Shown here piece after piece: positions 35,010-64,000 of a stretch of DNA of 64,000 bases. Positions within the stretch are counted from its first letter, which is position 1. Each line of letters opens with the position of its first letter. The translations under genes were made by a program, and so were the position numbers. Under the pieces are notes generated by a model, which was given only the letters and a program-made list of their open reading frames with translations, was not told the origin of the DNA and did no database searches. This stretch comes from a virus, in the IMG/VR virus record IMGVR_UViG_3300013117_000236, positions 1-64,000 of that record; one strand, written 5' to 3'.

Positions 35010-35726
35010 ATGAAAAGATGTAGTGTATTTACAATATGTAGTGAAGCGTTGGATATGTTAAAATATTCAACTAATATGGCAATTAATAGAGCAGGTACTG
35101 ATAATTTTGATTTTATAGTTATACTATTTGATGCATCTGATGCAGTTAAAAGATGGTCACGTGAAAAGGGTTTAAGATGTTTTGAATATCACACTAAAAA
35201 AGATTTAAGTTTCATGGCTAATCTAAGAAATTGTTTTAATGAAGGTTTTATGAGAGGTTTTATGATGAATGAGTATACTGTTCCTATTAATACTGATAAT
35301 TTATTTTATAATAATTGGTTGGTTAATTTAATGAAATATACTGAACAGAATAGGATTGTGAATTGTAAGTTAATCGAGCCAGGTACAGTTCCAACAATAC
35401 ATACATCTAAAAACTTTGGTGAACCAACTGAAGAAAAATTTGATTTGGAGGAATTTGATGCTTATTGTAAACACATTTACCAAGACAAATTAATACATGA
35501 GAAAGATTATGGGAGAAGGTGCGATGCTACTCCATATATTTTACATAAAAATACTTTTGCGAAATTCGGTCCTTGGGAATTAGAACCTATAAATGGAGTA
35601 CCTCCTGATGTATTGTTCTTTGATAGGTGTAAAGCGGGGGGTATAGATAATATGAAAAGTTTAGGAGCTATTTCATATCATCATGGAGGCGTAGAGATAA
35701 GGAGAAAGAGAGGTTTTTATGGTTAA
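35010..35726 (+). CDS. Glycosyltransferase-like protein (GT2-related), 238 aa
   Basis: Alpha/beta protein with NTDNLFYNNW in place of a D-x-D motif and ELEPINGVPPDVLFFDRCK towards the C-terminus, parallel to the GT2 protein at 30568. Probable sugar transferase of degenerate motif set. Confidence 0.55.
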   Translation: MKRCSVFTICSEALDMLKYSTNMAINRAGTDNFDFIVILFDASDAVKRWSREKGLRCFEYHTKKDLSFMANLRNCFNEGFMRGFMMNEYTVPINTDNLFYNNWLVNLMKYTEQNRIVNCKLIEPGTVPTIHTSKNFGEPTEEKFDLEEFDAYCKHIYQDKLIHEKDYGRRCDATPYILHKNTFAKFGPWELEPINGVPPDVLFFDRCKAGGIDNMKSLGAISYHHGGVEIRRKRGFYG

Positions 35727-35967
35727 TACGGAAACAATAGGAGAATTAATAGATAAGTTAAGTATAGTGAATATTAAAATGTCAAGATGGAACCATCGTA
35801 AAATAGAATTACATAATAAGAAGAAACTTGTTCCTGAAGAAAAGGATGAGTTGATAAGTATTGATAAACAAATAATGGTTACTAATGAAATGAGAGTTGC
35901 TCTAAAGAATAAAATTAATGAGTTTTTTGGGCAAACGAAAGAGGAGAGAACTTATGAGCACAAATGA
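35719..35967 (+). CDS. Small helical protein of glycan clusters, 82 aa
   Basis: Begins ETIGELIDKLSIVNIKMSRW, a pattern seen in small helical proteins that accompany lipopolysaccharide-type clusters (IGEL-DKL-I--IK). No catalytic motif; possibly a subunit or regulator. Overlaps both neighbours. Confidence 0.5.
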   Translation: MVNTETIGELIDKLSIVNIKMSRWNHRKIELHNKKKLVPEEKDELISIDKQIMVTNEMRVALKNKINEFFGQTKEERTYEHK

Positions 35968-36721
35968 TATGATAAGTGTAATAATGCCATATTGGAGATA
36001 TAATGGTAAGAGTATAAAATACATGAAAGAGGCATTAGATAGTTTAGCTAATCAAACTTACAAGAATTTTGAACTTAGATTGTGTTTAGATTGCCCAGAT
36101 TTAGATACTATTACAGAAGTTCGTAAGTTAATACAGAATTATGATTTTAAAACATACTTCTCCGTTAGAGATAGTCACAAACCTAGTATCTCACTAACTA
36201 GAAATGCAATAATCCCTTCCGCTGAAGGAGATTGGATTGCCTTTTTAGATGCGGATAATATATGGCATAAGGACTGGTTAGCACAAATGATAGATAGCGC
36301 GAGGAAGGTATATCCTGATGCCACATATTCAAGGGCGGCGCCTGATTTTAGAACTCTGTCCGAGGGAGAAGCTCAGTTAAAAATGTTTGAGAAATATGAT
36401 AAAGCATTTGAAGTTATTGATGAGAATCATTTTACATACTATTTAAATTGTCCTGCAAACCCGTTATTTGGGGCAGTAATGTTACATAAAGACCACATAG
36501 AGAAAATTGGTTTATTTAATGCCGAGTTAGAAATTTATGAGACGAGTTTGATGATGGCAAAGTTATTTTTGAACTTTAAAGTTCACTTTGTTAAGAAAGC
36601 ATTTCTGTTTACTAGAATATGGGAAGGGGCAATATCTACTAGGGGAGGAAATCAGAAATTAGTAGACTTTAAAAAGCTATTTCAAGACAAGGCAAGATTA
36701 TATAAGGAGAGTTTGAAATGA
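35954..36721 (+). CDS. Glycosyltransferase family 2
   Basis: 255 residues from ATG 35954. Classic GT-A start ISVIMPYWRYNGKSIKYMKE, D-x-D-like FLDADNIW near residue 92, and a C-terminal helical part. Polymerising or decorating transferase of unknown specificity. Confidence 0.82.
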   Translation: MSTNDMISVIMPYWRYNGKSIKYMKEALDSLANQTYKNFELRLCLDCPDLDTITEVRKLIQNYDFKTYFSVRDSHKPSISLTRNAIIPSAEGDWIAFLDADNIWHKDWLAQMIDSARKVYPDATYSRAAPDFRTLSEGEAQLKMFEKYDKAFEVIDENHFTYYLNCPANPLFGAVMLHKDHIEKIGLFNAELEIYETSLMMAKLFLNFKVHFVKKAFLFTRIWEGAISTRGGNQKLVDFKKLFQDKARLYKESLK

Positions 36722-37482
36722 GTTATCCAACATCAGTATGGATGGAAACAACGAATATTTGTAATTATAGATGTATGTTTTGTCCACGAGAATTAATAAA
36801 AAAAACACAGAAAATTATGAGCTTAGAAGAGTTCAAAGTTATTGCAGATAAGTTAAAAGAAGCGGGAATAACTATTGGATGTATGAGTGGGTATGGTGAA
36901 CCGTTACTAGACCCAACATTGTATGATAAATATAAGTATGGTAGAGAGATTGGAGTATTTAGAGGTATAGTAGGGATAAATACTAATGGTTCATTACTAA
37001 CGAGAGATAAGTGGGATACTATATTAGAAAATTCTGATTTTTTAACAATATCATGTGTTAATACTCATGATGACTATAGATTACTAACAGGTTATAGTTG
37101 GACGATTTTTTATAAGAAAGTTACCGAATTTATTATTGAGAGAAACATTAAAAAACCAGAATTCGTAATTAATATTGGATGTAATAAAGTAGAAGGACAT
37201 GATTTAGATAAAGTTAATAAGGCATTTAGAGGATATAATGTTAATATTATAGGTGACCCCGGTATTAAATGGACAAATAGCATAAAAGGACCAACATATT
37301 GTGATATGGAAGATGGGCACATGACAATATTAGTTGATGGTACTTGTACAAATTGTTGCTTTGATTTTAATGGTGAAAATTCGTTTGGTAACATACTAAC
37401 AGATTCAGTTGAGCAGATAAAGGAAAACTTCACAAAAAAGAAAGACTTTCCATTATGTAAGAGGTGTGATTATGTCGGCTAG
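36718..37482 (+). CDS. Radical SAM protein with SPASM-like C-terminus
   Basis: 254 residues. CNYRCMFC (C-x3-C-x2-C) near residues 14-21 binds the SAM-cleaving 4Fe-4S cluster; GYGEPLLDP follows. The C-terminal CTNCCFDF...FGNI...CKRCD pattern resembles the SPASM/twitch auxiliary cluster. Radical SAM enzymes in glycan clusters modify sugars (dehydration, epimerisation, C-C bonds); the substrate is unknown. Unusual in a viral cargo. Confidence 0.82.
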   Translation: MSYPTSVWMETTNICNYRCMFCPRELIKKTQKIMSLEEFKVIADKLKEAGITIGCMSGYGEPLLDPTLYDKYKYGREIGVFRGIVGINTNGSLLTRDKWDTILENSDFLTISCVNTHDDYRLLTGYSWTIFYKKVTEFIIERNIKKPEFVINIGCNKVEGHDLDKVNKAFRGYNVNIIGDPGIKWTNSIKGPTYCDMEDGHMTILVDGTCTNCCFDFNGENSFGNILTDSVEQIKENFTKKKDFPLCKRCDYVG

Positions 37483-38662
37483 AGGTATGAGAGTATTCGT
37501 TATAGGAGTACCAAGGTCAGGAACAACTGTAATGTTAGAAGCAATATCTCGATACCCAGGATTTAAATTTTATAATCAGAAACTTGAACATTACCCAACT
37601 TCACCTGAGGTAGATGCGATTATTAATAGTGGAGTAAATGTTGTAATGAAATTGCCCGGAATGTGTTTTGATTTTCCAAAACATTATAGAATGTTTCCAG
37701 AAGCAAAATGGATATTAATGACGAGAGAATTGGAAGGTTTAAAAAAGTCTTATGAAAAGTTTAGTAAGTTTAGAACATTGAAAAACATAACTGTAAAAGG
37801 AATGATTGACCCAGAACAGGTAAGGGAGAAGTATATGGCAATGATTAGTGAGTATGGTAATTATGATAATTGTATGATTGTTTCACTTGAAGATTTTCAA
37901 AATAGTAGTGTGGTTGTGATGATTGATGTACTTAAATTCTTAGGACTAGAATATAAAATAGATGTAATGAACTTCGTAGATAAGTATGTCGCGAAAGTTG
38001 CGCCAAAAGATTATCCTCTCACTGCAAGGTCATTTGAACGCGATAATGGAGAGTATATGGAGTTTGAACAAATGGGAGAAGTAGAGGCCCAAAACTTTAT
38101 GAAAACAAAAGAAGACCAAGAAATAAGGGGAATAATGAGGGAACATGTTAGTGGAATAGGTGGTATGGTATTAGATGCTGGTTGTGGTAGAGGTATTGAT
38201 AGTCAAAGATATCATCATACAAGATATGTTGGTATGGATATATCTCAACCTTTAATTAGTATAGCAATGAAGAATAATCCAGAACATAATTATGAAGTAG
38301 AAGATTTGAGAAGAATACCACATGAAAATAATGAGTTTGATAATGTAATATGTTTGTCTGTATTTGAACAACTCCATTCAGAAGACGATGCTATATTAGT
38401 GTTTAAAGAGTTAATTAGAGTATGTAATAAACAGTTATTAATTGGATGGTATGCACAACCACGAGAAATAACTAAAAGCGAAATTAATATTGTAAAAGCT
38501 GATGATGTAAATAGAAAAGTATTTCAAAATATATATAGTAATAAAAGATTTAATGAAGTGATAACAAAAGTTGGTGCTAAACTTGAAGTAATTAATATAG
38601 ATGAGACATGGGTACTATGGAAGATAAATTTAGAAGGGATTAACAAGGAGGCGAAAAAATGA
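37472..38662 (+). CDS. Fused sulfotransferase and SAM methyltransferase
   Basis: 396 residues. N-terminal half: VPRSGTT at 13-19 is the 5'-phosphosulfate-binding loop of PAPS-dependent sulfotransferases, with WILMTRELEG as the 3'-phosphate-binding region. C-terminal half: VLDAGCGRG (about 233-241) and YVGMDIS are class I methyltransferase motifs. One polypeptide could sulfate and methylate the same glycan. Start 37472 (ATG) rather than GTG 37466. An APS kinase lies 1.4 kb downstream. Confidence 0.78.
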   Translation: MSARGMRVFVIGVPRSGTTVMLEAISRYPGFKFYNQKLEHYPTSPEVDAIINSGVNVVMKLPGMCFDFPKHYRMFPEAKWILMTRELEGLKKSYEKFSKFRTLKNITVKGMIDPEQVREKYMAMISEYGNYDNCMIVSLEDFQNSSVVVMIDVLKFLGLEYKIDVMNFVDKYVAKVAPKDYPLTARSFERDNGEYMEFEQMGEVEAQNFMKTKEDQEIRGIMREHVSGIGGMVLDAGCGRGIDSQRYHHTRYVGMDISQPLISIAMKNNPEHNYEVEDLRRIPHENNEFDNVICLSVFEQLHSEDDAILVFKELIRVCNKQLLIGWYAQPREITKSEINIVKADDVNRKVFQNIYSNKRFNEVITKVGAKLEVINIDETWVLWKINLEGINKEAKK

Positions 38663-39207
38663 AGTATCCTTATAAAGAATTTTTTAGAGGAGTATATGAA
38701 AATATGAATAACTTAATAACTAAAGATGATGTTGTAGTCGAAGTAGGATGTAGGGATGACAGGTGTGTAATTAGTAATAGAATGTTTAATTGCAAGAAAT
38801 TTATTGGAATTGATAAGGACGATAAGAGAGTATTAAGTGGTATGGAGTTTATAATTATGGATGCTGTAACTGAGGAGTTGCCAAAGTGTGACATAATGAT
38901 TACAACTGCATTGATTCAACATTACCCAAAAGAAGACTTACACAAAATTATGAAAAATTTATCAATTAATACAAGAAAATACTTAATGTTAACTTGTCCT
39001 AATAGAGAAGTTCAACCAAAAGTATATGGAGACCACAAGTACCATCCTACTATAGGGGAGATAGTAGGAGAGTTAAGTAAGATAGGATTTAAAAGGGAAG
39101 TAGTTTACTATCATAGAGATTATATAAATAAAGAGTTTAAACCAACGGGAGAATTTATAATGGTTGAAAAGGGAGCATTTACAATAGTTGCAAGGAGGAG
39201 AGTATGA
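38659..39207 (+). CDS. SAM-dependent methyltransferase, small
   Basis: 182 residues: VVVEVGCRDDRCVISN as motif I (G-C-R-D in place of G-x-G), FIGIDKDDKR as motif II, ALIQHYPKEDL. A short class I methyltransferase; ATGA overlap with the fusion gene before it. Confidence 0.7.
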   Translation: MKYPYKEFFRGVYENMNNLITKDDVVVEVGCRDDRCVISNRMFNCKKFIGIDKDDKRVLSGMEFIIMDAVTEELPKCDIMITTALIQHYPKEDLHKIMKNLSINTRKYLMLTCPNREVQPKVYGDHKYHPTIGEIVGELSKIGFKREVVYYHRDYINKEFKPTGEFIMVEKGAFTIVARRRV

Positions 39208-39800
39208 TATATGAAGACTTTTATCCGATAACTGATGAGTTGGCTTTAATAACATCTGGTGAAGATTACGAACATTTACAGTGGCTAAAAATAGTTACTT
39301 ATAAAGTAGGTTCGGATAGTAAGGTAATAATTACTAATGATGTAGCGTTTAAGAAAGGTACACATATTAGATTGGGAAATATATATAATGGAAAGATAGT
39401 TTATAGTGATAATAATGTGATAGAACCATTCAATATTAAAGGAGAACAGCCCTTTATGACTAATAGAGGAGTATTATATACCAATGATGGAGGAATATAT
39501 GAAAAAACATTTTCAGGTATTACAATAAAAGTTATACCAGATATAAATAATGTGAAAATAATAGACTTATGGGGAGATATTAAAGAATTAGGTAATCCTT
39601 GTGAACATGATGGGTGGATTTACTTCGAGGCAAGGAAAGAACCTGCGCCTATGGGTTGGCAAATTTGGAAATTTAATATTAAAACTAGTGAAAGGAAGTT
39701 AGTAAGAGAATATGGTGCTAATCCTTATGTGTTTCGAGGAAAGTTATACTTTAGCAAATGGGATGGAAAGAAATTTGAAACATTAGTGGAGGAACTATGA
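39204..39800 (+). CDS. Beta-rich protein, propeller-like, 198 aa
   Basis: Repeated four-stranded units with motifs such as RLGNIYNGKIVYSDNNV and PYVFRGKLYFSKWDGKKF suggest beta-propeller blades. Overlaps neighbours in the glycan operon. May bind or process sugars; no catalytic residue is identified. Confidence 0.5.
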   Translation: MIYEDFYPITDELALITSGEDYEHLQWLKIVTYKVGSDSKVIITNDVAFKKGTHIRLGNIYNGKIVYSDNNVIEPFNIKGEQPFMTNRGVLYTNDGGIYEKTFSGITIKVIPDINNVKIIDLWGDIKELGNPCEHDGWIYFEARKEPAPMGWQIWKFNIKTSERKLVREYGANPYVFRGKLYFSKWDGKKFETLVEEL

Positions 39801-40126
39801 AATATTCATTATTCATCGGTAGATGGCAACCCTTTCATGAAGGTCATAAGAAAATGATACAAAAAGTAATAGATGAAGGAAAGAAACCTCTTATAGCGAT
39901 AAGGAATACTCCTATTAATAAAGATAATCCATATACTTTGACAGAGAGAGTAAGAATGATTGAAAAAGAATTTCCAGAAAACGTTAAAATAGTAATTATA
40001 CAAGATATAGAAGAAATATGTTATGGAAGAGATGTAGGATATAAAATCAGGGAAATAAAACTCGACGAGGAAACTGAGAAAATATCAGGGACGGGGATTA
40101 GAAATGATAACGTGGATAACAGGTAA
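39797..40126 (+). CDS. HIGH-type nucleotidyltransferase, compact
   Basis: 109 residues: FIGRWQPFHEGHKKMIQKVI with the H-x-G-H nucleotide-binding motif at about 14-17 and ISGTGIR near the end. This is the cytidylyltransferase/NMN-adenylyltransferase/ATP-sulfurylase fold at minimal size. Next to an APS kinase, an adenylyl transfer to sulfate is conceivable; nicotinamide or sugar-phosphate substrates are alternatives. Confidence 0.7.
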   Translation: MKYSLFIGRWQPFHEGHKKMIQKVIDEGKKPLIAIRNTPINKDNPYTLTERVRMIEKEFPENVKIVIIQDIEEICYGRDVGYKIREIKLDEETEKISGTGIRNDNVDNR

Positions 40127-40439
40127 TAGTGGAGCAGGTAAAACAAGATTAGCGAAATCATTACAGGCAAAATACGGTGGAGTAATACTCGATGGTGAAG
40201 ATATGAGAAGATGTTGGGACGACGTTAGATTTACAAAAGATGATAGATGGAAACATAATATAAGAATTGCACAACTTGCCAAAATAATTGATAATCAGGG
40301 AATTGATGTTATAGTAGCTACAATTTGTCCTTACAAAGAATTAAGAGATAGGATTAAAATGATAATAAATTGTAGATTTATATACCTTGATGGTGGTAAG
40401 CCGTCAAGTAAGGAGTATCCGTATGAATTGGTTGGGTAA
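40104..40439 (+). CDS. Adenylylsulfate kinase-like P-loop protein (CysC-like)
   Basis: 111 residues, shorter than typical CysC (about 180-200). GNSGAGKT at 7-14 and LDGEDMRR at about 29-36 match the P-loop and the LDGD-x-R segment of APS kinase, which makes PAPS from APS and ATP. C-terminal DGGKPSSKEYPYE resembles the CysC end (SPYE-type). With the sulfotransferase nearby this is a coherent sulfate-donor set; the shortened middle could mean another small-molecule kinase. Confidence 0.7.
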   Translation: MITWITGNSGAGKTRLAKSLQAKYGGVILDGEDMRRCWDDVRFTKDDRWKHNIRIAQLAKIIDNQGIDVIVATICPYKELRDRIKMIINCRFIYLDGGKPSSKEYPYELVG

Positions 40440-40950
40440 TGTAGTTAGTAAACATATAGAACCTGGTGATACTATATTGGATTTAGGATGTGGAGTGATG
40501 GGCGCAACGTTAGACACATTAGAATGGAATAATAATTATCCTAATAGATTAAATAATGTGATAGTTGGTGTTGATATGTATGTCCCTTATTTGAAAAGGA
40601 TTAAAGATTTAAAAAATATAATTGCATTACGTCTTAACATAAAGGACTTAAGTATATTTATGGACAAAAGTTTTGATGTTGTTATGGGATTAGATGTTGT
40701 TGAACACGTAAGGGAACCAATCGCATATGAATTAATAAGGGAAATGGAACGTATAGCACGAAAAAAAGTAATAATTTATACTCCTATAGAATTTAAAGAA
40801 CAAGATAAACTAAATGCCTGGGAATTGGGTGTTAATGAGTATCAAAGACATTTCTGTCACATTCCTCCTTACTGGTTTGAAAATAACGGGTATAAGGTTA
40901 CATTTCCGAAACCAGACGAGAATACATTAGCGGTAAAGGTGATTAAATGA
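40423..40950 (+). CDS. SAM-dependent methyltransferase
   Basis: 175 residues from ATG 40423. TILDLGCGVMGATLD (motif I), VGVDMYVPY (motif II), FDVVMGLDVVEHV (motif IV). Free-standing class I methyltransferase, probably acting on glycans or metabolites of this cluster. Confidence 0.75.
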   Translation: MNWLGNVVSKHIEPGDTILDLGCGVMGATLDTLEWNNNYPNRLNNVIVGVDMYVPYLKRIKDLKNIIALRLNIKDLSIFMDKSFDVVMGLDVVEHVREPIAYELIREMERIARKKVIIYTPIEFKEQDKLNAWELGVNEYQRHFCHIPPYWFENNGYKVTFPKPDENTLAVKVIK

Positions 40951-41011
40951 AAGAGTTACGAGTAATAATAGCATAGAAGCGGAAGGAGAATTTTAATAAT
41001 TAGAGGATAAT

Positions 41012-41710
41012 ATGAGAGTATCAGCAATAATAATGTCTTATAATTCAGAGAAGTTCATAAGGGAATCTATACAAAGTGTACAGACACAAAGTATAAAACC
41101 TTACGAGATAATCGTAATTGATGACGGGTCAACTGACAATACTTTAAAGATTGCAAATGAGATGGGAATTAAGAAAGTTCATTCACAAAAACATACAGGA
41201 AGTATTGGTCAAGTTAGACAAAAAGGAGTTGATATGGCTACAGGAGATTATGTAACATTTTTAGCTGCAGATGACGTTTGGCATAAGAGTTTCCTGAAAA
41301 GAATAACAACTGATTGGTTACAAGGTACTATAGCATATTGTAACTATTTTAGATGTGACGAGAATCTGAATAAATTATTAGAGTATGTTGGTCCTATACC
41401 TACTGTAAGTAATATATTGGATTACGCGGAGAGACCTGACATGTTTATTAATTTTAGTTCAATACTAATTCCAATGGAAGTATTCGATGAAGTAAAATTT
41501 GATAATAGAGCGAGAGTAGGTGAAGATTTAATATTTGTACTAGAATGCTTGTTACATAAGTGGAGATTTACTAATGTTAAACATTCAATGACATTTTATA
41601 GAGTACATCCAGACCAAAGGACCACTGATTGGACAGAGGATGAAAGAAAATATTTGATGAATAAAGTAGGAGTGCTAACTCAGCAAATTAAAAAGGAGGT
41701 AATATTATGA
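41012..41710 (+). CDS. Glycosyltransferase family 2
   Basis: 232 residues: SAIIMSYNSEKFIRESIQSV, EIIVIDDGSTDNT, FLAADDVWHKS with the metal-binding acidic pair. Complete GT-A domain, preceded by TTAGAGGATAAT. Specificity unknown. Confidence 0.85.
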   Translation: MRVSAIIMSYNSEKFIRESIQSVQTQSIKPYEIIVIDDGSTDNTLKIANEMGIKKVHSQKHTGSIGQVRQKGVDMATGDYVTFLAADDVWHKSFLKRITTDWLQGTIAYCNYFRCDENLNKLLEYVGPIPTVSNILDYAERPDMFINFSSILIPMEVFDEVKFDNRARVGEDLIFVLECLLHKWRFTNVKHSMTFYRVHPDQRTTDWTEDERKYLMNKVGVLTQQIKKEVIL

Positions 41711-41982
41711 ATATGATAACAATTTTGCAAGAGGCAATAAAACACATAGGTAATTGTAAATACAAAGAAGCTACCCAAGTTTTGGAGTTTGCCCTAGAGA
41801 AGTTACAAACAACACAAGTAGTCGAAGAAGTTAAAGAAAAACCATATGAGAGACTTTCCAAAACAGACCTTATAAATTTGAGTAGAGAAGAACAAATAAA
41901 GCTCATAAAGAATTGGGGTGGAATTACAATACCAAAGACCGAAAAAGATAGAGTAAAGTTACTATTAAAATTGCAGGGATAG
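41707..41982 (+). CDS. Hypothetical helical protein, 91 aa
   Basis: Two helical parts joined by an acidic linker: a TPR-like helix pair (ILQEAIKHIGNCKYKEATQVLEFALEKL) and a SAP-like C-terminus (LSKTDLINLSREEQIKLIKNWG). Lies between two glycosyltransferases. Function unknown. Confidence 0.5.
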   Translation: MNMITILQEAIKHIGNCKYKEATQVLEFALEKLQTTQVVEEVKEKPYERLSKTDLINLSREEQIKLIKNWGGITIPKTEKDRVKLLLKLQG

Positions 41983-41983
41983 A

Positions 41984-42724
41984 ATGAAAATAGTTGGTTT
42001 GGTACAATTTTATAATGAAGGAGCAAATGGTAATTTGGAGAGGTGTATGAAGAGCTTAAAAAGTTTTTGCGAAGATATTGTATGTTATGATGATGGTAGC
42101 ACAGATAATAGTTTAGACGTTGCTAAACAGTTTACAGATAACATCATAATAAACAAGAAAAGAGATTGGAGAAATGAGTTATCTCATAAAAACGCGATGT
42201 TACAAATGGCTCTTAAATTGAAACCTGATTGGTTATTTTGGTTAGATGCGGATGAAGAGGTGGCTGCTGACGCAGATATCAAAATGCAGGCGATGGCAGG
42301 TGAACAATTAAATGTAGATGGTTGGGCATTTAATGAAGTTAATTTGTGGAAGAGTAACACATGGTATAGAGTTGATACGGAGTTTGGTAATGGATGGTTT
42401 GTGCGATTATGGAGGAATAATGGTAAATTGAATTACACCATTAGAGAGGGGTTACACTTAACGCCATTTCCTAATGGGTTAAATAAGTTGGCACAGAGTG
42501 AAATGAAAGTAATACATTATGGATTTAATACCGTTGAAAAGATAGTTGATAAGTATAAAGAATATTTAAAACACGATTTAACACACGCGTATTTGAATAG
42601 GATAATTAATGAGGGTCAACTAATAGTTAGACCAGTAAAGAAGGAGTGGTTTAGTAATGATTTCAACTATGAGAACAGGCCAGAGCCGATGGAGATGTTA
42701 GTATGGATGCGATTAATAGGTTAG
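41984..42724 (+). CDS. Glycosyltransferase family 2 (WaaE-like)
   Basis: 246 residues: VQFYNEGANGNLERCMKSLK, IVCYDDGSTDNS, LFWLDADEEV (D-x-D-E-E as in WaaE/KdtX-type glucosyltransferases) and a C-terminal helical part. One base after the previous stop. Confidence 0.82.
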   Translation: MKIVGLVQFYNEGANGNLERCMKSLKSFCEDIVCYDDGSTDNSLDVAKQFTDNIIINKKRDWRNELSHKNAMLQMALKLKPDWLFWLDADEEVAADADIKMQAMAGEQLNVDGWAFNEVNLWKSNTWYRVDTEFGNGWFVRLWRNNGKLNYTIREGLHLTPFPNGLNKLAQSEMKVIHYGFNTVEKIVDKYKEYLKHDLTHAYLNRIINEGQLIVRPVKKEWFSNDFNYENRPEPMEMLVWMRLIG

Positions 42725-42915
42725 TAAGAAAGTTAAGAAAAGTAGGAAATTTAACAAATAGGCTATATTTAACTAAAGATATCCATCAAATTCTGCAATT
42801 TCGGCTGATTTACTCAAGGGTACGAGTAGAACATTTGATTACAAATGTGTCTTACAGCTTTATAAATTATATCGCTAATAATAACATTATAAAAGAATTT
42901 AAAGGAGAGTTATGA
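42703..42915 (+). CDS. Hypothetical basic protein, 70 aa (uncertain)
   Basis: Basic and mostly helical; overlaps the previous gene by 22 bases and the next start by ATGA. A weak GGAGATGTTAGT lies before the ATG. Fits the overlap chain, but composition is unremarkable and the gene could be spurious. Confidence 0.4.
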   Translation: MDAINRLVRKLRKVGNLTNRLYLTKDIHQILQFRLIYSRVRVEHLITNVSYSFINYIANNNIIKEFKGEL

Positions 42916-44441
42916 CTGAAAAACAACCATTAATAAGTGTGATAATGCCAGTATATAATCAGAAGAAAGAATACTTAAAGAAAGCAATATTTTCTGTATT
43001 AGACCAAACATTTAGAAACTTAGAATTAATAATAGTTGATGATGGTAGTGATAAGCTAGTTAAGTTAGAAGACTACCTTTTACCGAGTAATATAGAGAGT
43101 AGAAATGTTAAGTTAATTAGAAAAGAAAATGGTGGTGTTGCTTCTGCACTTAACGCTGGTATTAATGCCATGAAAGGTCAATGGTTTGCTTGGTTATCAA
43201 GTGATGATATATGGACACCAGATAAGTTACATAAACAAGTAGATTATAAATTAAAGAACCCAGATGCAAAGGTAATATACTCTGATTGGGAGTATATTGA
43301 TGAAAATGGTAATCACATGAAGTATGAAACTGAACCTATATTTAAAAACTTAGAAGAAGTACAGTTTCACCTTTGTCATAAGTTTTTTGGGTGTGGGTCA
43401 ACTATTATGATTCAAAAAGAAGTGTTTGATAAAGTTGGTAAATTTAATGAAGAGTATAGGTCACACGAAGATTATGAAATGTGGTTTAGGATTGCTAAAG
43501 AGTATATGTTTCACAAAGTTCCTCTAGTACTAATGCAGTATAGAGAACATGGTAAAGCATTAAGATATACAGCTAATGCTATAGGGGGAACATTTAATAA
43601 AGTGAGAGAAGATGGGAGGAAATTATTGGATTATTATGGTAAATTAGATAAAGTAAGTATTGTAATTGCCGCATATAACGTTGAAAACACAATTTGTGGT
43701 TGTTTAGATATAGTATTAAATACTAGGGGAGTTGATGAAGTGTTTGTAATTGATGATGCAAGTACTGATAATACAAGAAAGATATTAGATGGATTCTCCC
43801 ATCCAAATTTAATAATCATAAATAATGCAAAGAATATGGGGAGAGCAATAACCCGAAATAAGGGATTAAAGAAAGCAAAAAATCATCTAATTGCTACAAT
43901 TGATGGTGACATTATTCCAGACTTTAATTGGTTAGCAATTTTGAAAAAGAAGATGGAAAATATGTGGTTAGATGTTTGTGGAGGTTCAGTAAGGTGGAAA
44001 TCTGTAAGTGGAGGTTACTGGACGGATTATTATGATTTTTATCAAACTCAAGTTGCAAAAAGAAGTATTGGTACATGTTTAACATTATTTAAGAGAAGTG
44101 CGTTAGAAAGTGTTGGATTCCTAGATGAAGCATTAACAAGTGGTGAAGATAGTGAAATGATGTTTAGAATGCAACAAAAAGGATTTCAATTTTACAAGAT
44201 TCATGATTTACTAGGAACACATATAGAAGAAAGAAATTTGTTTGATGTAATAAAGAGACATTATGAATACGGAGTAGATAGGGCAATAATGGTTAAAAAA
44301 CACCCAGATAAAGTGAAAGGACAATTTAACGAGAACGAAACTCAACATAATCCTGCAGAAATTGTAAATATATTACAAGAATTATTAAAATTAATAGGTA
44401 CGTTAGGATTTAGAGAGGAATATTTAAAAGATGGGAGATAG
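42912..44441 (+). CDS. Double-domain glycosyltransferase (GT2-GT2)
   Basis: 509 residues with two complete GT-A domains. Domain 1 (about 8-230): ISVIMPVYNQKKEYLKKAI, IIVDDGSD, SSDDIW. Domain 2 (about 245-480): VSIVIAAYNVENTICGCLD, VFVIDDASTDNT, TIDGDIIPD. Bi-functional enzymes of this type polymerise alternating sugars or add two sugars in sequence. Last glycan gene of the cargo. Confidence 0.85.
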   Translation: MTEKQPLISVIMPVYNQKKEYLKKAIFSVLDQTFRNLELIIVDDGSDKLVKLEDYLLPSNIESRNVKLIRKENGGVASALNAGINAMKGQWFAWLSSDDIWTPDKLHKQVDYKLKNPDAKVIYSDWEYIDENGNHMKYETEPIFKNLEEVQFHLCHKFFGCGSTIMIQKEVFDKVGKFNEEYRSHEDYEMWFRIAKEYMFHKVPLVLMQYREHGKALRYTANAIGGTFNKVREDGRKLLDYYGKLDKVSIVIAAYNVENTICGCLDIVLNTRGVDEVFVIDDASTDNTRKILDGFSHPNLIIINNAKNMGRAITRNKGLKKAKNHLIATIDGDIIPDFNWLAILKKKMENMWLDVCGGSVRWKSVSGGYWTDYYDFYQTQVAKRSIGTCLTLFKRSALESVGFLDEALTSGEDSEMMFRMQQKGFQFYKIHDLLGTHIEERNLFDVIKRHYEYGVDRAIMVKKHPDKVKGQFNENETQHNPAEIVNILQELLKLIGTLGFREEYLKDGR

Positions 44442-44442
44442 T

Positions 44443-44928
44443 ATGGATTTAAATTGGTTACTAGGATTTATTGAAGGTGAAGGGAGTTTTGTAGTAACTA
44501 TACACAAACAGTATGGACACAAATGGGGAATTTGTACCCAACCAAAGTTTACAATTTGTTTGGGTAGATGGGATTTAGAAACATTAGAAGAAATACAAAC
44601 TTTTTTACTTGAAGACTATAATATTGAATCAAGAATAGAACATAGAAATAGAGATAATAATAATCAATTAGTAATAAATAAAGTAGAAAGTTGTTTCAAT
44701 TTAATTCCATTACTTAATAACTTAGAATGGCATACAAATAAAAGAAGAGACTATAATATTTGGAGTTATATAGTAGGAATGGTATTGAGAAAAGAACATA
44801 AGACAAAAGATGGATTGTTAAAAATATTCCTACTTAGAGAAGAAATGAACAAAAATACAAATAGACGCAACACACAAGGAAAAAACGATGTACTTAGAGA
44901 AGAAATATTAAAAATTGGAGGTGATTAA
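44443..44928 (+). CDS. LAGLIDADG homing endonuclease, single motif
   Basis: 161 residues from ATG 44443, which overlaps the previous stop (TAGTATG). LNWLLGFIEGEGSFVV is the LAGLIDADG helix with its acidic catalytic residue (GEG), followed by the beta-sheet DNA-binding part. One motif means it acts as a homodimer. It is free-standing at the junction between the glycan cargo and the tail genes. Confidence 0.85.
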   Translation: MDLNWLLGFIEGEGSFVVTIHKQYGHKWGICTQPKFTICLGRWDLETLEEIQTFLLEDYNIESRIEHRNRDNNNQLVINKVESCFNLIPLLNNLEWHTNKRRDYNIWSYIVGMVLRKEHKTKDGLLKIFLLREEMNKNTNRRNTQGKNDVLREEILKIGGD

Positions 44929-57214: not shown

Positions 57215-57948
57215 TTTCTCACCTCCTCTAGTAAATGTTTCTCCCAGTCTCCTTTATTGTTTTCGTGACACAATTTCTTTACATTTTGTGGACACCAGAA
57301 ACAGTTCTTTGGTTTAATAGGAAAATATTCCATAGTAATACTCTTTTTAACTTGTTTTACTATACCTAACATCTTGTTAATATGTTCTTCAGTAATATCT
57401 ATCGATAGAATCTTACCTGTTTTTACAGCTATGATTCCTACTTTAGGTATAGGTTTCTTGAACGCTTCTCTAAATAAATAAGCATATACTGTCATCTCAA
57501 ATAAGTGTTTCTTAATTCCCTGAACTGTTCCTGTTTTATAATCATAAATATGGTAACGACCTTCTTTTGGCTCGTAATCAACTCTATCAATTATACCGCT
57601 CAAAGGACCAATCTTTAACTTTACTTCTTTATGTTTTGGTCTATAATGATGGCGCGGTAACCTGTTAAACCTTTCTGTTTCAATCTTTATAAAATTATCC
57701 ATCCAATCTTTATGGGCTCTCCAACTAATATCAGTCATTAAACTCTTTAAAGTGTTTTCAAAGTTTTTTGGTTGCATTGTTCCATAATCTAATCTATTAA
57801 AAAACTTCTCTGCTATATCGTGGAACCACGTACCTGCTTGCATGGCGGGGCTTGTAAACGGAACATCATTCAATTGTACGAGTTTATATTGTTGTGGACA
57901 ATTGCAATATTGCAATATTCTACTCTTACTTAGTTTTGGCACTTCCAT
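57211..57948 (-). CDS. Cas4/RecB-like PD-(D/E)XK nuclease with Fe-S cysteines
   Basis: 245 residues: N-terminal QYCNCPQQYKL, nuclease core with GIIDRVDYEP and YDYKTGT (D...D-x-K), then QMTVYAYL-like LFEMTVYAYLF, and a C-terminal FWCPQNVKKLC. Four cysteines (15, 17, about 218 and 226) could hold the Fe-S cluster of Cas4/AddB nucleases. No Cas1 or Cas2 is nearby, so a replication or recombination exonuclease is more likely than CRISPR adaptation. Overlaps the polymerase gene by 23 bases. Confidence 0.85.
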   Translation of the reverse strand: MEVPKLSKSRILQYCNCPQQYKLVQLNDVPFTSPAMQAGTWFHDIAEKFFNRLDYGTMQPKNFENTLKSLMTDISWRAHKDWMDNFIKIETERFNRLPRHHYRPKHKEVKLKIGPLSGIIDRVDYEPKEGRYHIYDYKTGTVQGIKKHLFEMTVYAYLFREAFKKPIPKVGIIAVKTGKILSIDITEEHINKMLGIVKQVKKSITMEYFPIKPKNCFWCPQNVKKLCHENNKGDWEKHLLEEVRK

Positions 57949-60145
57949 GCTTAAACCACTTCCCTAAATCTTGTGTTTTAGAAATCCAACCCATAGCATC
58001 ATAAACTTTATCTAATTTATTTGTGAAAGTTAATTGCTCCATCTTTTCCCAATTAACATCTAAACCTTCTGGCACTTTCTGGGTAAAACAAATAACATTT
58101 GTTGAGGGTTTCCCTTTAACTCCTTTAACGTAAATCATTTTAATCTTATCACCAGCAAATATTCGTTCGCCTAAATATTTATTAGCATACTCTGCACCGC
58201 GTACGTGCGCCTGCTTTACTTTATAATCTTCAAACTTTGACTTAATTCCTTTTGGTATCGCTATTTGGTCTAGTGGTATCTTTTGGAACTCTTTCTTCCT
58301 TTCTGCGACAAATCCCTCTATGTCCTTCTTCTTCTTTCCGTCTAATAATAAGTTAAATAACTCTTGTTGAAACTTTTGTCCGAAAGGATTAAAATCACTT
58401 CTAATTGCTTCAAATCCCGTAATATCTAATGTAGGTTCTTTTTTTTCACCGTCAACCCAAACCAACCTACCAGCATACCTCTTCTTTGCGTTTGTTTCTA
58501 AAAATTTTATGTAAACTTTCTCTGCCCTATTCAAAAGGTATTTATTCTCTTTACACCCGAACTGCTTAACAAATTCAGTATAACTATCGTTTACTACCTT
58601 CTCTAACTTGGCTCTTATTTCTAGTATTTCTTCTAAATTTTCCTTGTTAGTTCTTATTATACAAGAATCAGTATCCGCGTAAATGACTTTCAAATCTGGT
58701 GAGTAATCTTCTATAACTTGCTTTGTCCATTTTATACACTCTCTACCTATCCAAGTTATACTTTTCGCTATGTCAGGGTTAAATAACCTGAAGTTTGGAT
58801 ATGCTGTAGCGCCATAGACTGCATTAATAACAAACTTCATCGCGAACTGAAAGGCGTATAACGACTTATACTCAATAGAACCATATTCAGTTTGCCTCAT
58901 CTTTTTCTTTACTTTATCTCTCTCGTTAATTAGGTATTCAATCATACTAGGTATAAGACCTTCGGGTTCGCTCTTAAAGCTAATTCCGTTACCAAGTTTG
59001 AGGTCCCCTTCTTTGCTAATAGTTTCAGTGCTCATATTAAATTGTAATATAATAGAAGGATATAGTGACTTCAAATCCATAACCATAACTCCTTTGTGTA
59101 CTCCTGGTTTTGTTGTAAGAACGAAACCACCCTCAAATTTTTCTCTTTTACCGTAAGTACGAGTAGGTAAAATCTCTCCTCTTTCTTTTGCTTTACGTAA
59201 TAAAAGTACGTCATTAAGCATGCTAAATTCAAATGTATATTTCCACACACTACCACATAATAAACGCAGGGTATTATAAAAGTCAATCAGCATTTTCTTT
59301 TTGTCAATTAAAACACATAACTCAACATCGTGTCTATTATATTCAATTAACGTATCTAAGTTCTCCCACAAATCACGAAGGTATGGTTTCCCCTTGTCCA
59401 AACCTAATTCTTTCTTTGCTACGTAATCTAAACTATTATACGTTGAGCTATATAATTTCTTATACGCTCTCAACAAATCAAATACTATTCTACCTTTTAC
59501 AACAATATCAAAATATCTACCCTGCATCCTTTCTTGTATTGCTGTATAATTTTCACGACTTAGTTTATTAGGATTGAGATTTAATACTCTAAATCTATTA
59601 ATAATATACTTCATATCAAATCTATCAACTGCCCATCCAGTAAATACATCGGGGTCAGTTTCATTTATAAACTTAGTAAACTTTTCTAACATTCTTATTT
59701 CACTATTAAAAAAAAATGTTGAGTGATTGGAACTCTTCTCTGTTTTAGGTATAACATCTTCGCGCCAAACAAAAGTAACATACTTCTTTAAAAAATTATC
59801 ATAACAAGTAACACTCATAATTGGTTCGGGTGTCGTATCAACATCTAAACAGGCGTTAGCAGTTTCAATATCTAAATAACAAATTCGAAGTGGTTCTTTC
59901 TTCATTGGTATTGGTATTTTATCAATTAAATAACGTTGTGGGTAGGGGATATCACTCTCATACGTTTTAGGATACATTCTTCGTCTATGTTGTACATCTG
60001 AAGGAGTAAATACTTCTATTCTTTCCCTCTTATCATTGTAAAAATATGGCTTAAACGAATTGTCAGTTTCAACATACAATTTCCCATTTTTATCTCTTCC
60101 ATATATTTTAATTCCTGCCCTTCCAACTTGTTCAATTATATTCAT
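57926..60145 (-). CDS. polB: Family B DNA polymerase
   Basis: 739 residues, all motifs intact: Exo I DIE at 92-94, Exo II around 167-177 (VFTGWAVDRFD), Exo III YNRHD at 269-273, Pol A DLKSLYPSII at 357-366, Pol B KFVINAVYG at 437-445, Pol C YADTDS at 489-494. A proofreading replicative polymerase of archaeal/viral protein-independent priming type, with a primase in the same operon. No intein interrupts it. Confidence 0.96.
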   Translation of the reverse strand: MNIIEQVGRAGIKIYGRDKNGKLYVETDNSFKPYFYNDKRERIEVFTPSDVQHRRRMYPKTYESDIPYPQRYLIDKIPIPMKKEPLRICYLDIETANACLDVDTTPEPIMSVTCYDNFLKKYVTFVWREDVIPKTEKSSNHSTFFFNSEIRMLEKFTKFINETDPDVFTGWAVDRFDMKYIINRFRVLNLNPNKLSRENYTAIQERMQGRYFDIVVKGRIVFDLLRAYKKLYSSTYNSLDYVAKKELGLDKGKPYLRDLWENLDTLIEYNRHDVELCVLIDKKKMLIDFYNTLRLLCGSVWKYTFEFSMLNDVLLLRKAKERGEILPTRTYGKREKFEGGFVLTTKPGVHKGVMVMDLKSLYPSIILQFNMSTETISKEGDLKLGNGISFKSEPEGLIPSMIEYLINERDKVKKKMRQTEYGSIEYKSLYAFQFAMKFVINAVYGATAYPNFRLFNPDIAKSITWIGRECIKWTKQVIEDYSPDLKVIYADTDSCIIRTNKENLEEILEIRAKLEKVVNDSYTEFVKQFGCKENKYLLNRAEKVYIKFLETNAKKRYAGRLVWVDGEKKEPTLDITGFEAIRSDFNPFGQKFQQELFNLLLDGKKKKDIEGFVAERKKEFQKIPLDQIAIPKGIKSKFEDYKVKQAHVRGAEYANKYLGERIFAGDKIKMIYVKGVKGKPSTNVICFTQKVPEGLDVNWEKMEQLTFTNKLDKVYDAMGWISKTQDLGKWFKHGSAKTK

Positions 60146-60600
60146 ACCTTTTTACCAATAAATACTTTAGGCGGTACACAAAGCTCTTTTTCTATTTTAA
60201 AATATTTCTCATTTCTATAAAACATTTTTCTAGCAGTTTGATTTGTAACTTTTTTGGTGCGTACAATTTCTCTTAATAATTCTATTAATAATAACTTTCT
60301 ACCATTTAAAATTTCCTTAATCTCATTAACACTTATTTTCTTTTGAAAGTGTTTACTTAAATGTTTACCGTTATTACTAAATAATTCTAAATTTTTAATT
60401 CTATTATCATTTCTAACACTATTTTTATGATGTACTCTTTCATTAGGTTTTAAATATCTACCTAATTTTTCTTCCATAACTAATCTATGTTCAAAAACAT
60501 AAAATTTATTATGGTGGGCAAAAGGATGTTCGGGTTTATATATCAATATGTATCCATCCCTATTAACAAATCTTCCTCCCTTCCAGTTACCTTTTCTCAT
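60142..60600 (-). CDS. HNH homing endonuclease
   Basis: 152 residues of the HNH_3 type: EHRLVMEEKLGRYL, HHKNSVRNDNRIKNLELFSN, followed by basic helices. Its stop overlaps the polymerase start (ATGA). HNH genes beside polymerase genes are a common pattern in phages, where they spread between related viruses. Confidence 0.85.
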   Translation of the reverse strand: MRKGNWKGGRFVNRDGYILIYKPEHPFAHHNKFYVFEHRLVMEEKLGRYLKPNERVHHKNSVRNDNRIKNLELFSNNGKHLSKHFQKKISVNEIKEILNGRKLLLIELLREIVRTKKVTNQTARKMFYRNEKYFKIEKELCVPPKVFIGKKV

Positions 60601-60784
60601 TCAATCTCTCCTTTAATCTCTGTATCTTAGTGAATAATAAAAATGACCATGCACAAATATCTAGGATTTCTTCTTCTACTTCGTCCTCGAGGTCTCTGTC
60701 CATAAAGGTATCTTTACCGTATTCAAGCTCCCCGATTTCTAACCTTTTGTTAATTCTTTCTGTAAACTCTTTTGATAGTTTCAT
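60587..60784 (-). CDS. MazG-like small protein candidate, 65 aa
   Basis: Helical; EVEEEILDICAWSFLLF resembles the E-x3-E...E-x2-D metal motif of MazG/dUTPase-like nucleotide pyrophosphohydrolases as seen in small phage proteins. Overlaps folE by ATGA. If right, it may clean up the nucleotide pool during modified-DNA synthesis. Confidence 0.5.
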   Translation of the reverse strand: MKLSKEFTERINKRLEIGELEYGKDTFMDRDLEDEVEEEILDICAWSFLLFTKIQRLKERLNEKR

Positions 60785-61380
60785 AATTTTATCAACTTGA
60801 AAAATTCGTTCTTTGGACTTTTACCTTTTGGTTCTTTTAGGAATACACCTTTTACTGCACTAGTTACAAAATCGCCTTCGTCGCCTTGTAGTTCTGCGCA
60901 CATATGTCTCGCCTTTATAGTTACTACTACTCCAAGTGGTTTTACGTTATCATTTATCCATTCTGTAATTTGTTTTGTCATTCTCTCTTGTATTTGTAAT
61001 CTAGCAGCGTAATATTGTACAACCTTATCTATTTTGTTCATTCCTAATATTTTCTTATCTGGGATAATACCTACATGCGCTTCACCAAAAAAAGGTACTA
61101 TGTGATGTTCACAGAATGACCAGAACTTTACCTTCCTGATTAATAGTTCATTATACTCATCATCATTATCAAAAACAGTTATGGGGATTATATTTTTACC
61201 GAATTCACTATTTCTTGTGGTCTCATTCATAATTTGTAACTTATTTCTATAACTGTAAAAACATTTTTTATATAACCTCGCAACTCGTTCCGGTGTACAA
61301 TCTATTCCCTCACGTTCAGTATCTTCTCCTATCTCTTGTAAAATTGTAAGTATTGCGCTCTCAACATTTTTTTCAATCAT
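60781..61380 (-). CDS. folE: GTP cyclohydrolase I (FolE)
   Basis: 199 residues: FWSFCEHHIVPFFGEAHVG with zinc ligands C90 and H93, ILGMNKIDKVVQYYAARLQIQERMTKQI, and the third ligand C161 in RHMCAEL. Converts GTP to dihydroneopterin triphosphate, the first step towards preQ0. In the same leftward operon as queD, queE, queC and dpdA. Confidence 0.93.
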   Translation of the reverse strand: MIEKNVESAILTILQEIGEDTEREGIDCTPERVARLYKKCFYSYRNKLQIMNETTRNSEFGKNIIPITVFDNDDEYNELLIRKVKFWSFCEHHIVPFFGEAHVGIIPDKKILGMNKIDKVVQYYAARLQIQERMTKQITEWINDNVKPLGVVVTIKARHMCAELQGDEGDFVTSAVKGVFLKEPKGKSPKNEFFKLIKL

Positions 61381-62107
61381 TTAATACCTCCTTAATCCAT
61401 CTTACATTCCAATAAATCGCTAATTTTTGTTCTTCTGTAATTTCACTTATATTAAAATAATCTTTTGGTCGTTTTACGTTATCTGGAGTTGTACCCATTA
61501 GTTTTCCGAATAAACCTAATTTAAATGGCATTGTGCTATCAATTGATGTTATATAAGGTTTATTTAACTCAGATAAATTTTCCCAATTATCTAACGCTAA
61601 TAAGTGTATATTTTTCTTAATAACGAAACTAGATTCGATTAACTTTAACAACTCAGTTCTCGGTATATTTGTGTACTGTTCTAACATGTGGTCTGGTATT
61701 GCTATTGTATTCACTCTATGCATTTCGTTTAATATGCTAAACGCTTCTACGAACTTACCAATATTTTTCGCTAATGGTATTACCATTATTTTTAAATCCT
61801 TTGGTACTACTGAGAGCATATCTTTCAATTCTTTTGTAAATTGTTTATCACCATAATAAAAAGTGTCAGGTAATACTATATAATGTGCACCAATTAATTT
61901 CGCTTTCTCAACTAATTCTGGTACTTTAGCTGCTTCTAATCTTTCAAAATATCCATTATCTAAAATTTTTAATCCTTCTAATTTTTTCCATTCTTCTGTA
62001 TACTTATTACCATCTTCAATTAAATGAGCTACAGCTAGATGTCTATCACTACACCAAAAGTATTTATCGTTCACAAATGCTGTTGGAAGTATATTAACGA
62101 ATTGCAT
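61373..62107 (-). CDS. dpdA: DpdA-like DNA 7-deazaguanine transglycosylase
   Basis: 244 residues, TIM-barrel TGT relative: LKILDNGYFE (about 46-55), IVLPDTFYYG, LAIPDH-type IAIPDHMLEQY, and IHLLALDNWE...YITSIDSTMPFKLGLFG, which parallels the viral DpdA signature with the catalytic Asp in SIDS. Would exchange guanine in viral DNA for preQ0. ATG 62107 is two bases after the queC stop. Confidence 0.78.
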   Translation of the reverse strand: MQFVNILPTAFVNDKYFWCSDRHLAVAHLIEDGNKYTEEWKKLEGLKILDNGYFERLEAAKVPELVEKAKLIGAHYIVLPDTFYYGDKQFTKELKDMLSVVPKDLKIMVIPLAKNIGKFVEAFSILNEMHRVNTIAIPDHMLEQYTNIPRTELLKLIESSFVIKKNIHLLALDNWENLSELNKPYITSIDSTMPFKLGLFGKLMGTTPDNVKRPKDYFNISEITEEQKLAIYWNVRWIKEVLND

Positions 62108-62108
62108 A

Positions 62109-63167
62109 TTAATCAACTAAAGGGTCTTTCATTTCAGCTTTTTGAAAAGCTTCTATACGTTCAACACAAGCTCCGCACTTCATACAGGGATTTACTTTCC
62201 CTTTATAGCAAGTATGTGTTAAACTATAATCTACATTTAACTTTTTTCCAAGAATTGCTATGTCTCCCTTATCCATTTTCAAAAATGGTGCAATAACTTC
62301 AATTCCATCTTGTACAATAGTATATTTTTTATCTCCTTTACCATGATTTTTACCTGGTATTTTTTCAAAAAAGTATTGATGTTCTTCATACCATTTTCTA
62401 AATTGTTCTTGTCTTTTTTCTAATTTAATACTATCTTTCATTAAATCAATAAATAATCTACAATCATGTCCAAATAGTTTGTAGGCAAACATTTCTTTTC
62501 CAGATTTCTTATGAATACCTTTTGAATGTACGCACCCCCTATTAAAAAAGAACTTTTTTATTTCTTCTAATATTACTCTATCATTTTGTGTAAATAATAC
62601 TATTGGCCAGAATTCTCTATCTTTTTCTTTTGTAGTATGTCTCGAATCTTGACCTAAAGTACCTTCACATTCCCAAAAAGCTCTAACAAATTCCGGTGTT
62701 AAAGTTCCTCTTTCTGCATTTGATGATTGGTCAAATACAGTATTATTAAATCCATCTAGAAATCTCTTTCTACAATCCCAATATATTTCGTGGTCTCCTG
62801 AATGAGCCCCATAAAAAATCTTTGTAATTTTCATTCCTCTAGCAAATGCAGATACTACACTTAACATTAACATATTTCGCATTGGAACAACTGTTTGGTT
62901 CATTGTAGATGATGTATAATGTCCTTCTGGAACTTCCCAATTTTCTCTTGTTAATGATGATGGTGATACCAAATTTATTACTTTTAAATCTATAATAAAG
63001 TGTTGAACACCTAATTTTTTACACGTTTTTTTCGCACATTCAATTTCTCTCTTATGTTTCTGTCCGTAATTGAAGCTAATAGCGTAAGGACTATATCCTT
63101 TATCCAATACATAATATAAAAGTGTCGTTGAATCCATCCCACCCGACAAAACAACTACTGCTTTCAT
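62109..63167 (-). CDS. queC: QueC (7-cyano-7-deazaguanine synthase) interrupted by a LAGLIDADG domain
   Basis: 352 residues against about 220-235 for normal QueC. N-part: SGGMDSTT at 8-15, NYGQKH, VPMRNMLML, GAHSGDHEIYWDCRKRF (to about 136). C-part: GIEVIAPFLKMDKGDIAILG and the zinc set C320, C328, C331, C334. Between, about residues 146-280, is a foreign domain: LTPEFVRAFWECEGTL followed by FTQNDRVILEEIKKFF and YKLFGHDCRLFIDLM, a LAGLIDADG endonuclease layout. The reading frame is uninterrupted. ATG 63167 follows AAAGGAGTGTAAAT. Confidence 0.88.
   Translation of the reverse strand: MKAVVVLSGGMDSTTLLYYVLDKGYSPYAISFNYGQKHKREIECAKKTCKKLGVQHFIIDLKVINLVSPSSLTRENWEVPEGHYTSSTMNQTVVPMRNMLMLSVVSAFARGMKITKIFYGAHSGDHEIYWDCRKRFLDGFNNTVFDQSSNAERGTLTPEFVRAFWECEGTLGQDSRHTTKEKDREFWPIVLFTQNDRVILEEIKKFFFNRGCVHSKGIHKKSGKEMFAYKLFGHDCRLFIDLMKDSIKLEKRQEQFRKWYEEHQYFFEKIPGKNHGKGDKKYTIVQDGIEVIAPFLKMDKGDIAILGKKLNVDYSLTHTCYKGKVNPCMKCGACVERIEAFQKAEMKDPLVD
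62320..62732 (-). mobile_element. In-frame LAGLIDADG insertion inside queC (approximate limits)
   Basis: Codes about residues 146-282 of QueC. The domain keeps the acidic residue of the LAGLIDADG helix (ECEGT). It lacks intein ends (no N-terminal Cys/Ser block A and no His-Asn block G), so it is a bare endonuclease domain or the ORF of an intron read in frame. Confidence 0.72.
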
Positions 63168-63169
63168 AT

Positions 63170-63883
63170 TTACACTCCTTTCATATTCCCCCATAATAAT
63201 ACTTGTAATTGTGGTAATACTTTCAGATCTTTTATCTGTGATAATAATTCATCGTTCTTAATTGTGTCTATTAATTTAGCATAACTCTTTAATAAGTAAT
63301 GCAAACTATTAGGTGCACCTGGTGCTGGATTAAGTGTTTGAACTACAAATTTCTCATCGGGGTAACTCTTACATAACATCTTGAGAAACTCTAAATCCTT
63401 TTCATCACCAACAACAACCTTAATTTCTCTATCAGTAATTAATGGATTATTTATAAATCTATTAAATACATCATCATTAAATTTCATTCCTGAACTCGGT
63501 GGTTTCGGTGATAATGTTAAATAATCTACTTCACTAAACCAATCCTTAAATATACTCCCTTGTGTTTCTACTAAAATAAAATAATTAAACGAGTGTAAAT
63601 AAATAATTAACTCACCTAATTCGTGTATTGCAGGGTTACCTCCACTAAATACTACACTATTACATCCTAAACTTCCTAGAGCATCTCCTATTGCTTGCTT
63701 ATTCATCTCTTTCCATTCCTTACCAAATTTTTTCTCATCTCGCGCATATTGTGTGTCACACCATTTACAATTAAAATCACAACCGGCGAATCGCACAAAT
63801 GAAACTAGTTCTCCAATATTGTACCCTTCACCTTGAATTGTCGGTCCGAATATCTCTACAATCTTGAATAGTTTTTCTTTCAT
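63170..63883 (-). CDS. queE: QueE (7-carboxy-7-deazaguanine synthase), radical SAM
   Basis: 237 residues: EIFGPTIQGEGYNIGELVSFVRFAGCDFNCKWCD with cluster cysteines C35, C39, C42 (C-x3-C-x2-C), VVFSGGNPAIH, and a C-terminal LSPKPPSSGM. Ring contraction of carboxytetrahydropterin to CDG. ATG 63883 is chosen over 63925 since homologues start at this point and it overlaps the queD stop (ATGA). Confidence 0.92.
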   Translation of the reverse strand: MKEKLFKIVEIFGPTIQGEGYNIGELVSFVRFAGCDFNCKWCDTQYARDEKKFGKEWKEMNKQAIGDALGSLGCNSVVFSGGNPAIHELGELIIYLHSFNYFILVETQGSIFKDWFSEVDYLTLSPKPPSSGMKFNDDVFNRFINNPLITDREIKVVVGDEKDLEFLKMLCKSYPDEKFVVQTLNPAPGAPNSLHYLLKSYAKLIDTIKNDELLSQIKDLKVLPQLQVLLWGNMKGV

Positions 63884-64000
63884 GCTAAATGCCCCGTATC
63901 CGCATATGAGTTCTCTGTTTCCCAAACTTTAACTCTTATTCCCATTATTATCGTTTTAACATCTGCTAATTCTTTTACTATATCTCTAATTTTGAACGCT
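63880..64000 (-). CDS. queD: QueD C-terminus (6-carboxytetrahydropterin synthase), partial
   Basis: The last 40 residues of a leftward gene cut by the right edge: VKELADVKTIIMGIRVKVWETENSYAD. The V-VWET-x-NSYA end is the C-terminal signature of QueD/PTPS proteins, holding the pterin-binding Glu. It completes the preQ0 pathway with folE, queE and queC. ATGA overlap with queE. Confidence 0.7.
   Translation of the reverse strand, partial: AFKIRDIVKELADVKTIIMGIRVKVWETENSYADTGHLA

Follow-up and report, generated by a model that had tools for sequence, protein, structure and literature searches.

We analyzed a 64,000-nucleotide (nt) stretch of viral DNA, here called the window, which comprises bases 1-64000 of the 68,546-base virus record IMGVR_UViG_3300013117_000236. 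At its right end lies a cluster of preQ0 synthesis genes in which queC carries an in-frame LAGLIDADG insert of 137 codons. The cluster probably represents a known kind of preQ0/DpdA DNA-modification pathway, here with a QueC that hosts an unspliced homing endonuclease. The original prediction for this region had described the pathway and overlooked the insert. Coordinates and model matches are collected in Table 1.

An in-frame LAGLIDADG insert in queC

The window QueC is 352 amino acids (aa) long, as opposed to the usual ~215, and models from Pfam, PHROGs and NCBIfam matched it as two separate stretches. Alignment with insert-free relatives placed the extra codons between FLDGFNNTVFDQSSN and GIEVIAPF, in a variable loop that lies after the helix following the DCR motif and before the strand preceding the AP/TP motif. 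The QueC portions on either side retain the P-loop, the DCR motif and the C-terminal Cys motif. The codon-position composition of the insert gives a coding signal and its frame is open throughout, which was the case for none of 20,000 shuffles. Codons 112-226 of queC contain no in-frame start, and the LAGLIDADG motif begins at codon 156. The endonuclease domain is therefore expected to be made as a fusion with QueC.

Several lines of evidence identify the insert as a LAGLIDADG domain. It matched PHROG 5046 at 6e-5, a family also matched by a second, clear LAGLIDADG open reading frame (ORF) of the record, and a scan of the record matched it to PF14528 at an E value of 0.009. Its motif, VRAFWECEG, keeps the acidic catalytic residue expected of such a domain. 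A joint profile of the window insert and the homologous insert described below matched solved LAGLIDADG enzymes in the PDB at 7.5e-12. As a query by itself, the window insert gave no convincing match in viral contigs, named phages or 392 genomes from the phylum to which the genome of a Methanoculleus contig belongs. Matches of the insert to PRORP and Cas12a were judged to be due to chance. Single-motif LAGLIDADG enzymes work as dimers, and QueC is also dimeric.

A distant virus carries a homologous insert at the corresponding position of its queC. We examined 127 QueC ORFs from fetched loci; this total counts some contigs twice, and three of the ORFs are that of the window or duplicates of it. 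As measured by the gap between domain matches, a large insert was found only in the window QueC and in that of L253 (IMGVR_UViG_3300017613_001793, 58.9 kb), a contig recovered by the QueC-profile scan only; the next largest gap was 26 residues. In L253, LAGLIDADG_1 matched at 2.9e-11 between the two QueC stretches. We regard L253 as a bacterial-type phage because its QueC parts share 69% identity with the insert-free QueC of Cellulophaga phage phiSM. Between the window and L253, identity is 34% over the QueC parts (exteins) and 26% over the inserts. Alignment of the two inserts gave a z of 16.2, with 0 of 300 shuffles as good, compared with z values of 1.4-1.9 for the window insert against the other LAGLIDADGs tested. 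A near relative of each host virus lacks the insert, namely L187 (IMGVR_UViG_3300047195_000664) for the window and phiSM for L253. This pattern, a site shared by two distant viruses and vacant in the close relatives of each, bears only indirectly on site-specific cleavage and homing. During a mixed infection, the insert would cut queC alleles that lack it at the site that it occupies itself, and repair would copy it into the cut queC. Tolerance of the insert by the loop and continued QueC activity would allow it to persist.

LAGLIDADG enzymes are usually carried by introns or inteins, and the insert could instead be an unrecognized intron (a divergent group I intron or one with a relaxed archaeal splicing motif) or a protein-splicing element of an unknown kind, such that a QueC of ~215 aa is made. 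Consistent with this possibility, the QueC motifs flanking the insert are intact and both inserts amount to a whole number of codons. However, intein and Hint families gave no match at E values up to 1 in the QueC of the window or L253, and no Rfam intron family matched either gene at E values up to 10. At the insert junctions the best in-frame bulge-helix-bulge candidate, using strict 3-nt bulges and a 4-bp helix, scored below the shuffle mean, and 160 of 200 shuffles were as good. We therefore rejected an intein (no Hint domain), a group I or II intron (no Rfam match) and a bulge-helix-bulge intron (not above shuffles) as identities for the insert. In addition, the LAGLIDADG domain fills nearly the whole insert, leaving little space for a ribozyme or Hint domain, and in neither virus does a stop interrupt the frame before its end. 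Overall, splicing by an element of this sort seems unlikely. The simplest reading is that the gene would give one long chain, with the LAGLIDADG domain of ~137 residues retained in a loop of the mature QueC.

An insertion of 137 residues could also disrupt folding, in which case the fusion would be inactive and the virus would use host preQ0 or would have stopped modifying its DNA; relatives of the hosts do possess their own QueC. We consider such destruction of QueC improbable, given that the P-loop, DCR and Cys motifs are kept, that the protein passes the TIGR00364 cut-off and that no stop breaks the frame on either side of the insert. Furthermore, the length of this loop varies elsewhere (L023, L314), and the same insert is tolerated by a second virus, L253. 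Finally, it is very unlikely that the LAGLIDADG domain has been domesticated within QueC as an immobile part with a role in DNA modification: homologous domains at one site in two distant viruses, and inserts about as diverged as the exteins, would fit long co-residence, but the insert is sporadic (found in none of the other QueC ORFs examined, including that of the syntenic L187 and QueCs 56-60% identical to the window's), the substrate of QueC is a free base rather than DNA, and the same genome carries other homing-type ORFs.

The reading that we favor is thus an unspliced homing insert, in keeping with a lone in-frame endonuclease that lacks a detectable splicing element, is sporadic in distribution and occupies a fixed site in its host gene family. 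Several points weigh against it. The insert's own Pfam match is under the cut-off, and its identity leans on L253; the glycine at position 3 of the LAGLIDADG motif is Ala in the window insert; divergent introns can evade Rfam; and the QueC insert is known here from two cases only.

The preQ0 pathway and its DpdA candidate

The preQ0 gene cluster is genuine, and every gene named in the original prediction was confirmed at its place on the minus strand. FolE, QueE and QueC exceed their NCBIfam cut-offs and QueD exceeds its Pfam cut-off, supporting the complete route from GTP to preQ0 that had been proposed. The four enzymes are encoded together, as is characteristic of a viral preQ0 pathway. Looking to the right of the window, as had been suggested, showed that queD is complete in the record and partial in the window only because the window ends at 64000. 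The order of transcription on the minus strand is queD-queE-queC-dpdA-folE-65aa-HNH-polB. The cluster had been described as one overlapping leftward operon. The strand agrees, and overlaps occur at queD/queE (4 nt), dpdA/folE (8 nt) and folE/65-aa ORF (4 nt), but 1-2 nt separate queE from queC and queC from dpdA. It had also been placed after the polymerase; given the order of transcription, polB lies downstream of the cluster.

DpdA is the weakest gene call of the cluster. The best match of the 244-aa protein was the PADLOC DpdA model, and the NCBIfam DpdA model matched the same stretch at 0.002, with 17 bits against a 200-bit cut-off. When we used a profile of the 14-member family, DpdA 7ui4 was the top match in the whole PDB (E 0.023), over the HLLG...SIDS region. 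These weak matches to DpdA models converge on the catalytic His/Asp region. Residues D43, N44, E48, P73, D74, H161, L163 and D183 do not vary within the family, whose members occur in preQ0 clusters of L187 and L253 as well as of Bacillus phage BSTP12 and Weizmannia phage Youna2. Counting against a DpdA in this pathway, the protein is below every curated DpdA cut-off, and an uncontaminated profile comparison with Dp-1/Seurat-type phage DpdA was weak (16.6%). This value is the clean repeat of a comparison of the family with phage DpdA that had given 97%, which we discarded because the second set included the L253 protein, a member of the first family. The profile comparison A7 vs A4 was void because of a common sequence in both. 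PF01702 (TGT domain) had no match anywhere in the 68.5-kb record. The original prediction had offered matching to DpdA models as the check on its DpdA call, and no model cut-off was passed; the call therefore rests on the weak profile matches, the conserved residues and the gene context. Taken together, these make it very probable that the 244-aa protein functions as DpdA.

FolE, QueD, QueE and QueC would convert GTP to preQ0, which a DpdA-type transglycosylase would most likely exchange for guanine in the viral DNA, and preQ0 in the DNA would shield the virus from restriction. We found no QueF in the 68.5-kb record, which is possibly incomplete; the single PF14489 match is to FolE, whose fold is related. 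Given this negative result for QueF, dPreQ0 would be the expected product. As regards enzymes for the dPreQ1 and dG+ variants other than QueF, the N-terminus of QueC has no Gat extension, in agreement with the predicted absence of Gat-QueC, and the search included no model specific to ArcS. The relative contig L005 does carry QueF. The proposal that guanine is replaced by preQ0 or its derivatives is consistent with the pathway and a probable inserting enzyme, but replacement in known viruses is partial, ranging from ~0.02% to 30% of guanines (PMC6884629).

Relation to known systems

Pathways of this kind are known; the DpdA candidate of this one is divergent. Like the viral preQ0/DpdA systems of phages 9g, CAjan, Dp-1, nt-1 and Rosebush and of Halovirus HVTV-1 (PMC6884629, PMC8651126), the record combines FolE-QueD-QueE-QueC and a DpdA candidate in a tailed virus, near DNA replication genes. 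It differs from them by the LAGLIDADG insert in QueC and by a DpdA candidate that has diverged very far from the Dp-1/Seurat type. HVTV-1 has the pathway but lacks DpdA, and HRTV-29 shows the opposite combination, whereas the record encodes both the pathway and a DpdA candidate. A full preQ0 route and a DpdA candidate thus co-occur in an archaeal-type virus, and the DpdA family is barely visible to current models.

The surprising part is the QueC insert. It appears to be a variant of the homing inserts, unspliced and in frame, that have lately been described, and its site is shared between the archaeal-type virus and the bacterial-type phage. The closest known case is that of the actinophage DNA methylases, where a lone LAGLIDADG has been reported in frame without intein or intron (PMC9957025, PMC11855218). 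Those inserts (Taj_79, Akhila_67) are likewise single-motif LAGLIDADG domains, of ~139 aa, in frame in a viral DNA-modification gene. Here, by contrast, queC is the host gene, and its carriers are one archaeal-type virus and one bacterial-type phage. Among named phages, the L253 insert mostly matched these methylase domains (Akhila_67, Taj_79 and others; E ~1e-3). Compared directly with Taj_79, the window insert gave no significant score (z 1.9), and the link runs via L253 only (z 15.7). The ShiLan domain (PMC11855218) is also an unspliced, stop-free, in-frame insert in a viral modification gene, but its endonuclease is HNH and read in another frame, whereas the LAGLIDADG of queC shares the frame of its host gene. 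In the rps3-LAGLIDADG fusions of fungal mitochondria (I-OnuI type; PMC7902536), a LAGLIDADG endonuclease is likewise in frame with a host protein gene, but these are ~300-aa enzymes in a mitochondrial gene, unlike the single-motif domain inside a viral metabolic enzyme described here. A search for QueC with LAGLIDADG in the open-licence PMC literature surfaced only fungal genome papers; given that scope, a missing report is no proof of novelty.

More tentatively, there may be a family of unspliced in-frame LAGLIDADG domains that specializes in enzymes of viral DNA modification, namely methylases in actinophages and QueC in viruses of bacteria and archaea. Its members would be bifunctional, helping to modify the virus's own DNA and cutting the matching gene of competitors, and would have crossed between archaeal and bacterial viruses at one conserved queC site. 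The QueC-LAGLIDADG fusion offers a small, clean test of the recent question of whether a homing endonuclease can reside inside an enzyme without splicing, and QueC activity is easily assayed in E. coli. If this is true, over-long viral modification genes may conceal further such elements.

The virus and its gene neighborhood

The virus is likely an archaeal tailed virus, and its host is possibly a methanogen. In addition to polB, the record codes for an RFC-type clamp loader, an Xpf-like nuclease, a Cas4-like nuclease and a primase with weak archaeo-eukaryotic matches. For polB, the named relatives with the closest coverage are Halorubrum tailed viruses 25 and 27. An alignment scan of genome contigs gave contigs binned as Methanomicrobiales and other Euryarchaeota as its best cellular matches; a polB-only scan of genome contigs gave no hits. 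L187 is syntenic, with PCNA-like, RFC, queD, insert-free queC, dpdA, folE, polB, cas4-like and primase genes; its queE lies elsewhere on the same contig. The 65-aa ORF gave no match in family searches and corresponds to L187:7147-7425 (phmmer 3.6e-16).

Other homing-type ORFs were noted in the record. The HNH_3 ORF has no counterpart at the equivalent place in L187. Beyond the window, a free-standing LAGLIDADG ORF (record 65016-65528, L003:3016-3528; LAGLIDADG_3, 1.1e-8) is flanked by the RFC-type gene and a 157-aa ORF and is not found there in L187. A third LAGLIDADG ORF (window 44431-44928; LAGLIDADG_1, 4.7e-17) has a glycosyltransferase gene on one side and a tail-region ORF on the other. 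Separately, a run of sugar-related genes (31756-44441) resembles a viral glycan cluster.

Table 1. Positions of the preQ0 cluster, the queC insert and other features, with the matches or context behind each assignment
Feature	Position	Strand	Evidence or context
queD, 136 aa	63880-64290 (record); 63880..64000 in window (3' part)	-	PF01242 2.9e-29; PHROG QueD-like 7.6e-27
queE, radical SAM 7-carboxy-7-deazaguanine synthase, 237 aa	63170..63883	-	TIGR03365 221 bits (cut-off 206)
queC frame, 352 aa with insert	62109..63167	-	TIGR00364 188.3 bits (cut-off 150.3), two stretches; PF06508 1e-58
LAGLIDADG insert in queC, in frame, 137 codons (ends +/- ~3 codons)	62307..62717	-	Alignment with insert-free QueC
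Divergent DpdA candidate (DNA-guanine transglycosylase), ATG start, 244 aa	61373..62107	-	PADLOC DpdA 1.3e-4
folE, GTP cyclohydrolase I, 199 aa	60781..61380	-	NF006826 165.7 bits (cut-off 162); PF01227 2.5e-49
65-aa ORF, no assigned function	60587..60784	-	Adjacency to folE kept in relative L187
HNH endonuclease ORF	60142-60600	-	HNH_3 8.5e-10; between 65-aa ORF and polB
polB, family B DNA polymerase	57926-60145	-	
Glycosyltransferases	41984-42724, 42912-44441		Sugar-related run
Sulfotransferase plus methyltransferase fusion	37466-38662		Sugar-related run
UDP-GlcNAc 2-epimerase	31756-32874		Sugar-related run
SNF2-type helicase	5884-7500		2.6e-33

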